Below are positions 4,927-22,009 of a DNA stretch of 64,000 nucleotides, in pieces (the stretch's first letter is position 1; the number at the start of each line of letters is the position of its first letter). The notes beneath the pieces were generated by a model that was not told where the DNA came from, made no database searches, and worked only from the letters and a program-made list of their open reading frames with translations. The stretch spans positions 1-64,000 of the forward strand of contig NZ_LJHU01000098.1 in assembly GCF_001295975.1 (NCBI RefSeq). The letters run 5' to 3'. The stretch comes from Brevundimonas sp. AAP58. Its GTDB lineage: Bacteria > Pseudomonadota > Alphaproteobacteria > Caulobacterales > Caulobacteraceae. A program made the position numbers and the translations under genes.

Positions 4927-4962
4927 CTCAAGCAGCGAGACGCCGCGCGTCGAGCGGTAGCC
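4927..4962 (+). repeat. 36-base hairpin repeat, copy 3 (rpsO leader)
   Basis: Forward orientation: CTCAAGCAGCGA, hairpin GACGC-CGC-GCGTC, then GAGCGGTAGCC. This is the third distinct stem sequence in the family, again fully paired around CGC. It ends 20 bases before the rpsO ATG and just before its ribosome site (aaaggaag, 4968-4975), so the transcribed hairpin would lie in the rpsO leader. Confidence 0.85.
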
Positions 4963-4982
4963 CACAAGAAAGGAAGCTACGG

Positions 4983-5252
4983 ATGTCGATCACTGCTGAA
5001 CGCAAGGCCGAGGTCATTGCGGACAATGCTCGCTCGTCGGGCGACACCGGCTCGGCCGAGGTCCAGGTCGCGATCCTGTCGGAACGCATCGCCAACCTGA
5101 CCGAGCACTTCAAGACCCACAAGAAGGACAACCACAGCCGCCGGGGCCTGCTCAAGCTGGTCTCGCAGCGTCGTCGCCTTCTCGACCACCTGGCCAAGAC
5201 CGACAAGGATCGCTACGGCGCCCTCGTCGCCAAGCTGGGCCTGCGCCGCTAA
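4983..5252 (+). CDS. rpsO: 30S ribosomal protein S15
   Basis: Primary binder of 16S rRNA in the central domain of the 30S platform. 89 residues, the usual length. Recognisable stretches are the [17 protein letters not shown] region, [19 protein letters not shown] and the C-terminal [13 protein letters not shown] good ribosome site (aaaggaag) precedes the ATG. A strong intrinsic terminator follows. It is paired with pnp downstream, as in most Proteobacteria. Confidence 0.98.
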
Positions 5253-16975: not shown

Positions 16976-17653
16976 CTACCGCCGTTCGAACTCCAGGAAG
17001 ATCGGATCGGTGTCGCCCAGCCGCTTTTCCTCGTAGCGGGTGACGACATGGTCCTCTGGAGCCACCGTCCAGTCTGCCTTCTCATCCGCCAACCAGACCA
17101 GCCCCGGCGTCGCGATCAGCCGCTCCAGCGCCCAGCCGGCGTAGTCCTTCCAGTCCGTGACGAACCGCAGGCGCCCACCGGGCTTCAGCACCCGCGCCAG
17201 CTCGGTCGCGAATTCCGGCTGGATCAGGCGACGCTTGTTGTGCCGCGCCTTGTGCCAGGGGTCCGGGAACAGGATCATGACCCGGTCCAGACTGGCGTCG
17301 GGCAGGGCCGCGACCACGGCCCGGGCGTCGTCGTCATGCAGCCGCACGTTCTTGAGGTCGCCTTCCTCGACATGCCTGAGCGCCGAGGCCACGCCGTTCA
17401 GGAACGGCTCGCAGCCGATCATCAGAGCCTGCGGATGGCGCGCCGCCTGCGCCGCCAGATGCTCGCCGCCGCCGAAGCCGATCTCCAGCCAGACCTCTGC
17501 TGCGCCGGGCATCAGGGCCGCGGCGTCGATCCGGCCCTCGGTCGGAACGGGCAGGCGCACCGTTGGCATCAGGGTGTCGAACAGCGCCGCCTGACGCGGC
17601 TTGATCGGCCGCGACTTGATGCGGCCGAAGGATCGGAGGGGGGGGTGGGGCAT
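16976..17653 (-). CDS. trmB: tRNA (guanine-N7-)-methyltransferase
   Basis: Methylates G46 in the variable loop of tRNA using SAM. 225 residues. The SAM motif is WLEIGFGGGEHLAAQA; the family signature FPDPWHKARHNKRRL is complete; DWKDYAGWALE and the C-terminal TRYEEKRLGDTDPIFLEFER also match. There is no clear Shine-Dalgarno; instead a CTAGGG/CCCTAG inverted-repeat element ends three bases upstream of the ATG. Confidence 0.96.
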   Translation of the reverse strand: MPHPPLRSFGRIKSRPIKPRQAALFDTLMPTVRLPVPTEGRIDAAALMPGAAEVWLEIGFGGGEHLAAQAARHPQALMIGCEPFLNGVASALRHVEEGDLKNVRLHDDDARAVVAALPDASLDRVMILFPDPWHKARHNKRRLIQPEFATELARVLKPGGRLRFVTDWKDYAGWALERLIATPGLVWLADEKADWTVAPEDHVVTRYEEKRLGDTDPIFLEFERR

Positions 17654-17656
17654 CAG

Positions 17657-17760
17657 AAGGTTCGAGGTTCTAGGGGCTAGGTTCTAGGGGCGTGGCCATG
17701 AGCCCGGCCAAAAGGTGGCCTGCAAAACCCTAGTCCCTAGACCCTATAACCTAGAACCTT
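17657..17760. repeat. CTAGGG/CCCTAG inverted-repeat element, copy 1
   Basis: Left arm 17657-17690 and right arm 17727-17760 are about 33 bases each and complementary at roughly 28 positions; both are built from GGTTCTAGG/CTAGGG units. A 36-base spacer separates them. The element occupies the whole interval from the metK stop (its last base is the first base of the stop codon complement) to three bases before the trmB ATG. A second copy precedes gshB. Confidence 0.85.
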
Positions 17761-18959
17761 CAGACCAGCGCCTTCAGCTGATCCACCAGATCGATCTTCT
17801 CCCAGCCGAAGCCGCCGTCGGCGTCCGGCTCGCGGCCAAAGTGGCCATAGGCGGCCGTGCGGGCATAGATCGGCTTGTTCAGGCCCAGGTGCTCGCGGAT
17901 GGCGCGGGGGGTGGCCCCCCCGATCAGGTCCAGGATGCCGGCTTCCAGCTTGGCCTCTGTCGCGCCGTTCTTGCCGGTGCCATGCAGGTCGATATGGATC
18001 GACTGGGGCTTGGCCACGCCGATGGCGTAGCTGATCTGGATGGTGCAACGATCCGCCAGACCGGCCGCCACCACGTTCTTGGCCAGGTAGCGACAAGCAT
18101 AGGCCGCCGAACGGTCCACCTTGGTCGGATCCTTGCCCGAGAAGGCTCCGCCGCCGTGGGGCGAGGCCCCGCCGTAGGTGTCGACGATGATCTTGCGGCC
18201 CGTCAGCCCGGTGTCGCCGTCCGGCCCGCCGATCTCGAAGATGCCGGTCGGATTGATGTGCCAGACGGTGTTCTCGTCGGTGAAGCCTTCGGGCAGGACC
18301 TCCAGGATGTAGGGCTTGACGAAGGCGGCGACCTCAGCAGCTTTGCCCTTGGCGTGCTGGGTCGACAGCACGATCGACGTGGCGCGGACCGGCTTTCCGT
18401 CCTCGTACTGGATGGTGACCTGGCTCTTGGCGTCCGGCTCCAGAAGGGTGCCGCCGGCGTGACGCACCTCGGCGAGGCGCTTGAGGATGTTGTGGCTGTA
18501 CTGCAGCGTCGCCGGCATCAGCTCGGGCGTCTCGTTCGAGGCATAGCCGAACATGATGCCCTGATCCCCCGCGCCCTCGTCCTTGTTACCAGAGGCGTCC
18601 ACGCCGACCGCGATGTCGGCCGACTGGCCATGCAGGCGGTTGATGAACTCAAACGTGTTCCAGTGAAACTGGTCCTGCTCGTAGCCGATGTCCTTCACGG
18701 CCGCGCGCACCGCCGCCTCGATCTCGGCCTCGATGCCCGGCTCCCAGGTGTCCTTCTCGGAGTTCCAGATGCCCTGACCGCGGATTTCGCCCGCCAGCAC
18801 CACCAGGTTCGTGGTCGTCAGTGTCTCGCACGCCACCCGCGCATAGGGATCCTTGGCCAGGAACAGATCGACGACGGTGTCGGAGATGCGGTCCGCGACC
18901 TTGTCGGGATGGCCCTCGGACACGCTTTCCGAGGTGAAGAGGAAGGACGAACGGGACAA
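17760..18959 (-). CDS. metK: S-adenosylmethionine synthetase
   Basis: Makes SAM from methionine and ATP. From TTG 18959 the protein has 399 residues and begins [21 protein letters not shown], matching the family N-terminus. GGAG lies about 7 bases upstream of that TTG; a GTG 36 bases further upstream (18995) is less convincing. [12 protein letters not shown] and the P-loop-like [19 protein letters not shown] are intact. A perfect 16-bp palindrome lies 50-65 bases upstream. I see no SAM riboswitch. Confidence 0.96.
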
Positions 18960-19008
18960 GGTCTGGCTCCGATGGCTCGCGCGGACGCGCGTCACAGCGC
19001 GCAGACAT

Positions 19009-19024
19009 ATAAAGATATCTTTAT
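19009..19024. promoter_or_regulatory. 16-bp palindrome upstream of metK (candidate operator)
   Basis: ATAAAGATATCTTTAT is a perfect palindrome in an otherwise GC-rich stretch, between tRNA-Thr and metK. On the minus strand a weak -35-like TTGATC (19027-19032) sits just upstream, so a bound protein would cover the promoter. ArsR-type regulators such as SahR are known to control methionine-cycle genes in several Proteobacteria; the link to this site is inference. Confidence 0.6.
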
Positions 19025-19101
19025 GCGATCAAGTGAGGCTTCACGCAGGCGCGTGAACGGCGGCGGCGTCGGGTCGCCTGGTTCGGATTGGCTGTATGAA
19101 A

Positions 19102-19177
19102 TGGTGCCGCTTAGGTGACTCGAACACCTGACCCCCGCATTACGAATGCGATGCTCTACCAGCTGAGCTAAAGCGGC
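19102..19177 (-). tRNA. tRNA-Thr (anticodon CGU)
   Basis: 76 bases. Acceptor arms GCCGCTT / AAGCGGC pair fully and CCA is encoded. D-stem GCTC/GAGC; anticodon stem TCGCA/TGCGG with loop TTCGTAA (anticodon CGT); T-stem AGGTG/CACCT with loop TTCGAGT. All arms form a standard cloverleaf. It lies between hemD and metK on the same strand. Confidence 0.97.
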
Positions 19178-19219
19178 CTGCCAGCGGGGCGCAATGTGCC
19201 CGGCGACGGAAGCGGCTCT

Positions 19220-19885
19220 TTATACGGCAGGCCCCGGCTTGCCAAGGGCCGCGAGCAGGGCGTCCTCGGTGGGGGCGGCGGCGACGCGGACCTCCCTGAA
19301 GGGCAGCTGAGACAGAGGCGCGGCGGCGGCTTCGGAGATGGCGCAGGCCAGCCGGCCCATAGCGTCGGGTGCGAGATCTGCCAGGACCCTGCCGGCGCGG
19401 GGACTGTGGATGAGAACAGCGTCCCATCCCTCCGGCGGGCGCGCGATGGTCTCGACCGTTTCATAGACGCAAAGGGTCTGGACATGCGCCACTTCGCCCA
19501 CCAGGACCGAAAGGTCTCCGGCGGGTTGCGCGGCGGCGGGGTGCAGGAGGGCAAGGCCCTTGGCCTCCTCGCGGATCACGGCCGCGAGGGCCGAAAGGTC
19601 ACCATCGGCGGAGCGGACGGAGACGAAACCTGCCTCCATCGCCGCGCCGGCGGTGGCGTCGCCGACGGCGAAGACCGGGCGGTCGCGTGCCGGGCTCAGG
19701 CCCGTGAAGACGGCGACCGCGTTCATGCTGGTGAAGACGAGGGCGTCGATGCCGGTCAGGTCGACCGCAGTCCGCAGGGGGCGCACTTCCAGCAGGGGGG
19801 CGATCACCGGCCTATAGCCCAGCCCGGTCAGCCGGGTGGCGGTGGCCTCGGCGCCGGGGCGGGCGCGGGTGATCCAGACCTTCAT
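19220..19885 (-). CDS. hemD: uroporphyrinogen-III synthase
   Basis: Cyclises hydroxymethylbilane with D-ring inversion in haem synthesis. 221 residues, a fast-evolving family. The N-terminal VWITRARPGAEATATRL, DALVFTSMNAVAVFTG, FAVGDATAGAA and the C-terminal DAVLIHSPRAGRVLADL are recognisable. It directly follows hemC (10-base gap), which makes the substrate, supporting the call. Confidence 0.93.
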   Translation of the reverse strand: MKVWITRARPGAEATATRLTGLGYRPVIAPLLEVRPLRTAVDLTGIDALVFTSMNAVAVFTGLSPARDRPVFAVGDATAGAAMEAGFVSVRSADGDLSALAAVIREEAKGLALLHPAAAQPAGDLSVLVGEVAHVQTLCVYETVETIARPPEGWDAVLIHSPRAGRVLADLAPDAMGRLACAISEAAAAPLSQLPFREVRVAAAPTEDALLAALGKPGPAV

Positions 19886-19895
19886 GGCCTGGCGA

Positions 19896-20828
19896 TCAAA
19901 CGGCGACCCTCTGGTCTCCCGCCGCCGCGTGGACCTGCTGACCCAGCTCCAGCCCCAGCGCCCGGGCGCGGTCCTCGGCGTCCGTGCCAGTCAGGTCGAT
20001 CTGGCCCGAGCGACGCCAGCGGGCGGAACCGTCGGGGGCCAGCATCTCGGTGGTCAGGGTCAGGGTCTGGCCCGCGACCGTGGCGTGGGCACCGACGGCC
20101 GTACGGCACGAGCCTTCCAGCGCCGTCATGGCCCCGCGCTCGGCGGCGACGGCGAGCCGGGTGTCGCGGTCGTCCAGCGCCCGGACCCAGTCGTGATCGG
20201 TGTCGCCCTCGCGGGTCTGGAGCGCGAGCGCCCCCTGTCCCGGCGCGGGCAGGAAGGCGTCGAGCGACAGATAACCCCGAACAGATTCGGCCCGCCCCAG
20301 CCGGTTCAGGCCGGACGCGGCCAGCAGGATGGCGTCGAAGTCGCCCTCGGCCGCGCGACGCAACCGGGTGTCGATATTGCCCCTCAGCATCTCGATCTTC
20401 AGGTCGGGGCGAAGGGTCAGGGCCTGGGCCTGACGCCGCAGGGAGGCGGTGCCGAGACGACCGCCGTGCGGCAGAGCCTCCAGCGTGTCGAAGTCGCGGC
20501 TTATGAAGGCGTCGCGCGCGTCCTCGCGCTCGGGGATGGCGGCGATGGTCAGGCCCGGCGGCTGCTCGGCGGGGACGTCCTTCATCGAATGCACCGCGAT
20601 GTCGACGCGACCGTCCAGCAGGGCCTCCTCGATCTCCTTGGTGAACAGGGCCTTGCCGCCGACCTCCATCAAGCGGCGATCCTGGATCTGGTCGCCGGTG
20701 GTGACGATCTCGACCAGCACGACCTCCTCGAGGGGCAGGCTCATGGCGGCGGCGATGGCCCGCTGCATCATGCCGGATTGGGCCAGGGCGAGGGCGGAGC
20801 GGCGGGTGCCGATACGGATGGTGGGCAT
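19896..20828 (-). CDS. hemC: porphobilinogen deaminase (hydroxymethylbilane synthase)
   Basis: Joins four porphobilinogens into hydroxymethylbilane on a dipyrromethane cofactor. 310 residues. Catalytic Asp84 is in HSMKDVP; the cofactor-attaching Cys241 is in ALEGSCRTAVGAHA; RIGTRRSALALAQ and LRGNIDTRLRR are intact. It is divergent from tsaD across a 44-base gap containing an inverted repeat. Confidence 0.97.
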   Translation of the reverse strand: MPTIRIGTRRSALALAQSGMMQRAIAAAMSLPLEEVVLVEIVTTGDQIQDRRLMEVGGKALFTKEIEEALLDGRVDIAVHSMKDVPAEQPPGLTIAAIPEREDARDAFISRDFDTLEALPHGGRLGTASLRRQAQALTLRPDLKIEMLRGNIDTRLRRAAEGDFDAILLAASGLNRLGRAESVRGYLSLDAFLPAPGQGALALQTREGDTDHDWVRALDDRDTRLAVAAERGAMTALEGSCRTAVGAHATVAGQTLTLTTEMLAPDGSARWRRSGQIDLTGTDAEDRARALGLELGQQVHAAAGDQRVAV

Positions 20829-20839
20829 TCGGGTCCGTT

Positions 20840-20870
20840 GCGTCAGGGGGACCGGGTCGTTACCTGACGC
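20840..20870. promoter_or_regulatory. inverted repeat in the hemC-tsaD divergent gap
   Basis: GCGTCAGG (20840-20847) and CCTGACGC (20863-20870) are perfect 8-base arms around a 15-base spacer, centred between two divergent starts 44 bases apart. It could be an operator or a leader hairpin. No known regulator motif is recognised. Confidence 0.45.
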
Positions 20871-20872
20871 CG

Positions 20873-22009
20873 GTGCAGAACTTCGATGACCTTAGCAGCG
20901 AAGCCGCCGCCGGGAAGGCGTTTTCGGATCAGCCTCTGACCATCCTCGGCATAGAGACGAGCTGCGACGAGACCGCGGCCTCGGTCGTGCGGTTGTCGCC
21001 ACAGGGTGGAGCGGAGGTGCTGTCCTCGATCATCCACAGCCAGATCGACGACCATCAGGCCTATGGCGGCGTGGTCCCCGAGATCGCGGCGCGTAGCCAC
21101 GTCGAGATGATCGAAGGCGTCGCCGCCCGCGCCATGTCCGAGGCCGGACTGGGCTATGGCGACCTGGATGGCGTCGGCGCGACCGCCGGGCCGGGGCTTG
21201 TCGGCGGGGTCATGGTCGGCCTGGGCTTCGGCAAGGCCGTTGCTCTGGCGCGGAGCCTGCCGTTCGTGGCGGTCAACCATCTGGAGGGCCATGCCGTCTC
21301 GGCGCGGCTGGGCGCGCGGGTCGACTATCCCTTCCTGCTGCTGCTGGTCTCGGGCGGGCACTGCCAGCTGCTGGAGGTGCGCGGTATCGGCGATATGAGC
21401 CGGCTGGGCACCACCATCGACGATGCTGCGGGCGAGGCCTTCGACAAGATCGCCAAGGCCATGGGGCTAGGTTACCCAGGCGGTCCGGCGCTGGAGCGGT
21501 TGGCGGCGAAAGGCGATGGGTCGCGTTTCGACCTGCCGAGGGCGCTGCTGGGTCGCAAGGATTGCGACTTTTCCTTCTCAGGGCTGAAGACAGCGGCCTC
21601 GCGGATCGCCCAGACGCTGGAGACAGAGCAGGACCGCGCCGACCTGGCCGATGCGGTCCAGAACGCCATCGCACGCCAGCTGGCCGAGCGGTCGGATCGG
21701 GCCATGGCGGATTATGCCGAGCGGCACGTCGCCAGGACCTTCGTCGTCGCCGGCGGGGTCGCGGCCAACAGGACCGTGCGTCGGGTGCTGGAAGAAGCGG
21801 CGGCCCGGCGCGGGTTCAGCTTTGTGGCCCCGCCGATGGCGTACTGCACTGACAACGCCGCCATGATCGCGCTGGCCGGTGCTGAGCGGCTCAGGCTGGG
21901 GCTGGTCTCGGACATAGATGCGCCGGCCCGGCCGCGTTGGCCGCTGGACGAAGCCCGTGCGATCGCCGACCCTGTGCATCCGACGGGGCGCAAGGGGGCC
22001 AAGGCCTGA
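20873..22009 (+). CDS. tsaD: tRNA N6-threonylcarbamoyladenosine synthase subunit TsaD
   Basis: Transfers the threonylcarbamoyl group to A37 of ANN-reading tRNAs. 378 residues starting at [19 protein letters not shown] opens the ASKHA fold; metal-binding histidines are in [50 protein letters not shown] and [16 protein letters not shown] are all typical. gpsA follows 20 bases later. Confidence 0.97.

Follow-up and report, generated by a model that had tools for sequence, protein, structure and literature searches.

A predicted SahR operator upstream of metK in Brevundimonas sp. AAP58 and its conservation in the Caulobacteraceae

What is the role of a perfect, AT-rich palindrome in front of the gene for S-adenosylmethionine synthetase? 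The question arises from a 64,000-nt stretch of the Brevundimonas sp. AAP58 genome (contig NZ_LJHU01000098.1, positions 1–64,000; hereafter the window), in which the element ATAAAGATATCTTTAT stands ahead of metK. SAH is a by-product of methylation and is sensed by SahR, a known repressor of the methionine cycle; in Desulfovibrio, SAH is said to release SahR from DNA. The original work on this regulator is reportedly that of Novichkov et al. (2014). According to the parts of Leyn et al. (2014; PMC4239095) consulted here, SahR regulons occur in four out of four Caulobacterales, with a core of sahR, ahcY, metH, metF and metK that is joined in part by metE. A sequence-only reading of the window had described the element as a perfect and strikingly AT-rich 16-bp palindrome between tRNA-Thr and metK, and had proposed an ArsR-type, SahR-like repressor as its partner. 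Here we follow the palindrome through the genome, the family and the class.

The palindrome and its partners in the genome

The description of the element holds in each respect. ATAAAGATATCTTTAT occupies positions 19009–19024 (no strand assigned), is perfectly symmetric over its 16 bp, and consists of A or T at 14/16 positions in a window of 66–71% G+C. The window contains four perfect 16-bp palindromes compared with a mean of 3.07 in dinucleotide-preserving shuffles, so that the symmetry alone is not remarkable. Perfect palindromes with at least 12 A/T, in turn, were found in none of 100 such shuffles, and ATAAAGATATCTTTAT, which the window matches only once when up to three mismatches are allowed, had 0 matches in 100 shuffles. 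The gene behind it, metK (17760–18959, minus strand), is identified by a TIGR01034 equivalog match and three Pfam domains. Its most plausible start is the TTG at 18957–18959 behind a GGAG, which places the palindrome 50–65 nt upstream of the start. On the other side, at a distance of 77 nt, lies tRNA-Thr (CGT; 19102–19177, minus strand), a neighbour that is not conserved beside the operator and that we regard as lying outside the switch.

A scan of the 2.97-Mb, 138-contig assembly, allowing up to three mismatches, yielded exactly three sites. Besides the copy at metK, ATAAGGATATCCTTAT is located just upstream of sahR, with metF and then metH following downstream on the same strand, and ATAAGGACATCCTTAT is located upstream of ahcY. 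These further copies thus precede an ArsR-type gene with metF–metH, and ahcY, genes that the sequence-only reading had named before the scan was run, and they support its proposal of a SahR-like repressor. The sahR product (321 aa) carries HTH_5 (ArsR) and Methyltransf_11 in one protein and so joins an ArsR DNA-binding domain to a SAM-methyltransferase-like domain; among the best 60 of 64 matches of a sequence search, there was no solved structure spanning both domains. A palindromic operator is common to sahR and the SAM-cycle genes ahcY, metF, metH and metK. On the points tested, i.e., the domains of the regulator and the shared operator, the predicted gene set is a member of the published SahR regulon, and since SahR regulons of like composition have been published for Caulobacterales, the kind of switch is already known.

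Conservation in the family and distribution in the class

The site is kept by relatives, as a look at 80 genomes from 22 genera of the same family indicates. At up to one mismatch, the pattern is found in 80/80 genomes, mostly three times per genome, while its reversed control is found in 3/80; a high-scoring SahR match was obtained in 76/80. At up to three mismatches, the site lies upstream of metK in 71/77 loci (six lack it), of sahR in 75/76 and of ahcY in 71/72; the stricter limit of two mismatches retains 68/77, 75/76 and 70/72, respectively. Neither outcome that the sequence-only reading had named as refuting its proposal, a lack of further copies near methionine-cycle genes or a lack of conservation upstream of metK, was observed. 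These counts leave out, for metK, one gene split over two contigs (G038) and secondary or partial matches (G036, G043, G047, G052, G063, G068); for ahcY, one gene at a contig edge (G072), C-terminal pieces (G048, G076) and second fragments (G004, G008, G013, G028, G043); and for sahR, every weak match below the 76 strong ones. The site also stands at metK in named records from Phenylobacterium and Caulobacter vibrioides OR37. In G016, a 98% complete genome that lacks a full-length match to SahR, the site is absent from both metK and ahcY, in keeping with SahR as its partner. The highest-scoring SahR match there (L255) is confined to the DNA-binding part of a small protein of ArsR type, which has a beta-lactamase-fold-like ORF as its neighbour. 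In genus g21 (G046, G070, G076), the metK operator is absent and the sahR operator is kept, as is the ahcY operator in both genomes whose ahcY upstream region was examined.

Across the class, we surveyed 142 genomes and called SahR at E ≤ 1e-30, which gave 72 genomes with the regulator. A looser pattern, ATAARGNNNNCYTTAT, matched 79/142 genomes, and since its reversed control also matched many, it was considered too noisy and replaced by the strict pattern ATAARGATATCYTTAT. The strict pattern occurs in 18/72 genomes with SahR vs. 0/70 without (Fisher p = 2.3e-6, uncorrected for relatedness or genome size), its reversed form never occurs, and 11/23 strict sites are directly upstream of sahR. 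The remaining 54/72 SahR genomes lack the strict form, and their operators may differ. Among 80 named metK loci, 79 of which have upstream DNA, 32/79 carry the site at up to three mismatches, mostly in Caulobacterales and Sphingomonadales. No site of this motif form was found at up to three mismatches in the named Rhizobiales-, Rhodobacterales- and Rhodospirillales-type loci, indicating that the class as a whole does not share this form.

Operator position and mode of action

Position, partners, conservation and co-occurrence provide good support for a SahR operator at metK, and we assign a probability of roughly 0.93 to the reading that SahR acts on this gene by way of the palindrome. Columns around the family operators point to a promoter in which the site is embedded. 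TTG starts 8 bp before the operator in 52/71 metK loci, compared with 0/75 sahR and 3/71 ahcY loci, and an A directly follows the operator in 71/71 metK loci vs. 53/75 at sahR and 42/71 at ahcY; the Fisher values for these columns carry no correction for relatedness. From these columns we infer an arrangement TTGnnn–17 bp–TATnnn at metK, with the spacer filled by the operator. In the window, the putative −35 is TTGATC (19027–19032, minus strand), at the place of the conserved TTG, and the putative −10, 17 bp away, is TATGTC (19004–19009, minus strand), with the invariant A just past the operator. These letters match the consensus weakly, and a promoter scan did not report the TTGATC-17-TATGTC pair.

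The geometry at ahcY is different, with promoter-like columns that follow the operator: TTG stands at +23 in 59/71 loci and TATA at +46 in 51/71, both together in 51, and an A at +59 in 40/71 represents a possible start. Accordingly, the operator stops 7 bp short of the putative −35, and its centre lies near −51 relative to the inferred start. This arrangement was noted in L005 around 4927–5018 (G000:C111) and among the 71 ahcY loci of the family. At sahR, the operator is close to the coding start, and TTG most often starts 13 bp before it (24/75). The position of the operator relative to the promoter, i.e., within the spacer at metK vs. 7 bp upstream of the −35 at ahcY, may be a new observation: judged by titles and abstract openings, we found no further work that treats SahR operator geometry, although papers beyond this coverage may do so.

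The metK operators are also distinct in their symmetry, which is broken at the sixth or eleventh position (ATAAAC... or ...GTTTAT) in 33/71 cases, whereas the same break affects only 4/75 sahR and 1/71 ahcY operators. The broken form is spread over 9/20 genera. Within the genus of the window it is found at metK in 7/9 genomes, the window being among the two without it. The simplest reading is that the symmetry-broken form would be a weaker operator. Neither the operator geometries nor the symmetry-breaking metK variant appear in the consulted parts of the published SahR description (PMC4239095).

Deletion of sahR in Ensifer aridi raised sahR promoter activity, and operator binding by the SahR of Desulfovibrio varies with the level of SAH, as stated in the parts of PMC8877191 consulted. 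Binding and the response to SAH of the SahR studied here are inferred by homology. Following the Desulfovibrio protein, the ArsR-type DNA-binding domain, fused to its SAM-methyltransferase-like domain, would occupy 19009–19024 at low SAH and block transcription of metK; as the operator fills the putative −35/−10 spacer, repression would proceed by exclusion of RNA polymerase. A rise in SAH would take SahR off the DNA, metK, ahcY and sahR–metF–metH would be expressed together, and the methyl cycle would run faster. SAM synthesis, SAH removal and methionine regeneration would thereby hang on one SahR-type repressor and three predicted sites, providing a clean operator for asking how the methyltransferase-like domain controls the ArsR domain.

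The geometries bear directly on whether SahR only represses. The place inside the metK spacer is that of a repressor, and a site 7 bp upstream of the −35, as at ahcY (near −51) and at cobalamin-riboswitch loci of relatives (metE where read), would suit an activator or a protein that blocks an AT-rich UP element. SahR of the Caulobacteraceae could thus work in two modes, fully repressing metK and activating, or only mildly modulating, ahcY and metE; the recurrent one-sided change in metK operators would then make the response of SAM synthesis weaker and graded. We consider this extension rather unlikely, at perhaps one chance in a handful.

Alternative readings and related systems

A different regulator might read the same palindrome, with SahR merely adjoining one of its copies. 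Sites persist in three genomes in which no strong SahR match was found (G027, G040 and G050; 96, 85 and 79% complete), and at three loci of genus g10 (L117, L364, L367; two of the three genomes gave no strong SahR match) the operator immediately precedes metF and metH, with no sahR next to it. However, the assemblies poor in SahR fall short of completeness to differing extents, so that the sahR gene may be missing from the assemblies of G027, G040 and G050 rather than from the organisms, and the confinement of strict class sites to SahR genomes, together with the share of them directly upstream of sahR, argues for SahR itself. We therefore regard another regulator as improbable.

A still smaller probability falls to an RNA element, which could either terminate tRNA-Thr transcription or belong to a metK riboswitch for SAM or SAH. 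The palindrome does sit between the tRNA and metK and could form a weak hairpin as RNA (−1.7 kcal/mol), but the same site is found at sahR and ahcY. A tRNA-Thr was present in 4/30 metK loci scanned, and the window's own locus was the sole one in which it immediately precedes the operator. The site is kept independently of the tRNA and of its position relative to the transcript, which speaks against an RNA element, and a tRNA-linked element was rejected. Consistent with the earlier view that no SAM riboswitch is evident, nothing besides the tRNA matched Rfam at gathering scores in 17500–21000; no terminator-like site was found either, and with the hairpin being weak, both riboswitch and terminator were rejected.

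Chance symmetry without function, for which speak the approximately three perfect 16-bp palindromes expected per window of such composition, has a negligible probability and is already refuted by the conservation at metK (71/77 family loci), in addition to the absence of any equally AT-rich palindrome from 100 shuffles and the sharing of the site by functionally linked genes.

The SahR operator, our preferred reading, can be set beside several known systems. The SahR regulon of Proteobacteria, as given in the parts of PMC4239095 consulted, is alike in its ArsR-type, methyltransferase-related regulator, its palindromic operator and its targets sahR, ahcY, metF, metH and metK; the motif published there is a 20-bp palindrome, whereas here a 16-bp core is accompanied by weaker symmetric flanks. 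SamR of Xanthomonadales (same source, same parts) resembles SahR and likewise regulates methionine genes, metK among them, with a 24-bp motif that shares ATC-10 nt-GAT, but its regulon is described there without other SAM-cycle genes, whereas ahcY is a predicted target here. SAM and SAH riboswitches exert a similar SAM- or SAH-dependent control over metK and ahcY but are RNA elements, and none was matched in the metK region.

Additional targets in relatives

Seven more sites, in six genomes of genus g14 and in G010 (L104, L358–L362, L365), start 45–47 nt upstream of a cobalamin riboswitch. These loci have TTG at +23 in 7/7 cases, as in the ahcY geometry, and TATAG-like letters at the −10 position in 4/7. 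The gene behind the riboswitch is metE in both of the loci read out of the seven, suggesting an apparent double control of metE by the predicted operator and the cobalamin riboswitch. Single-mismatch sites were also seen in L363, L366 and L368; they were not assigned to a methionine gene and may be due to chance.
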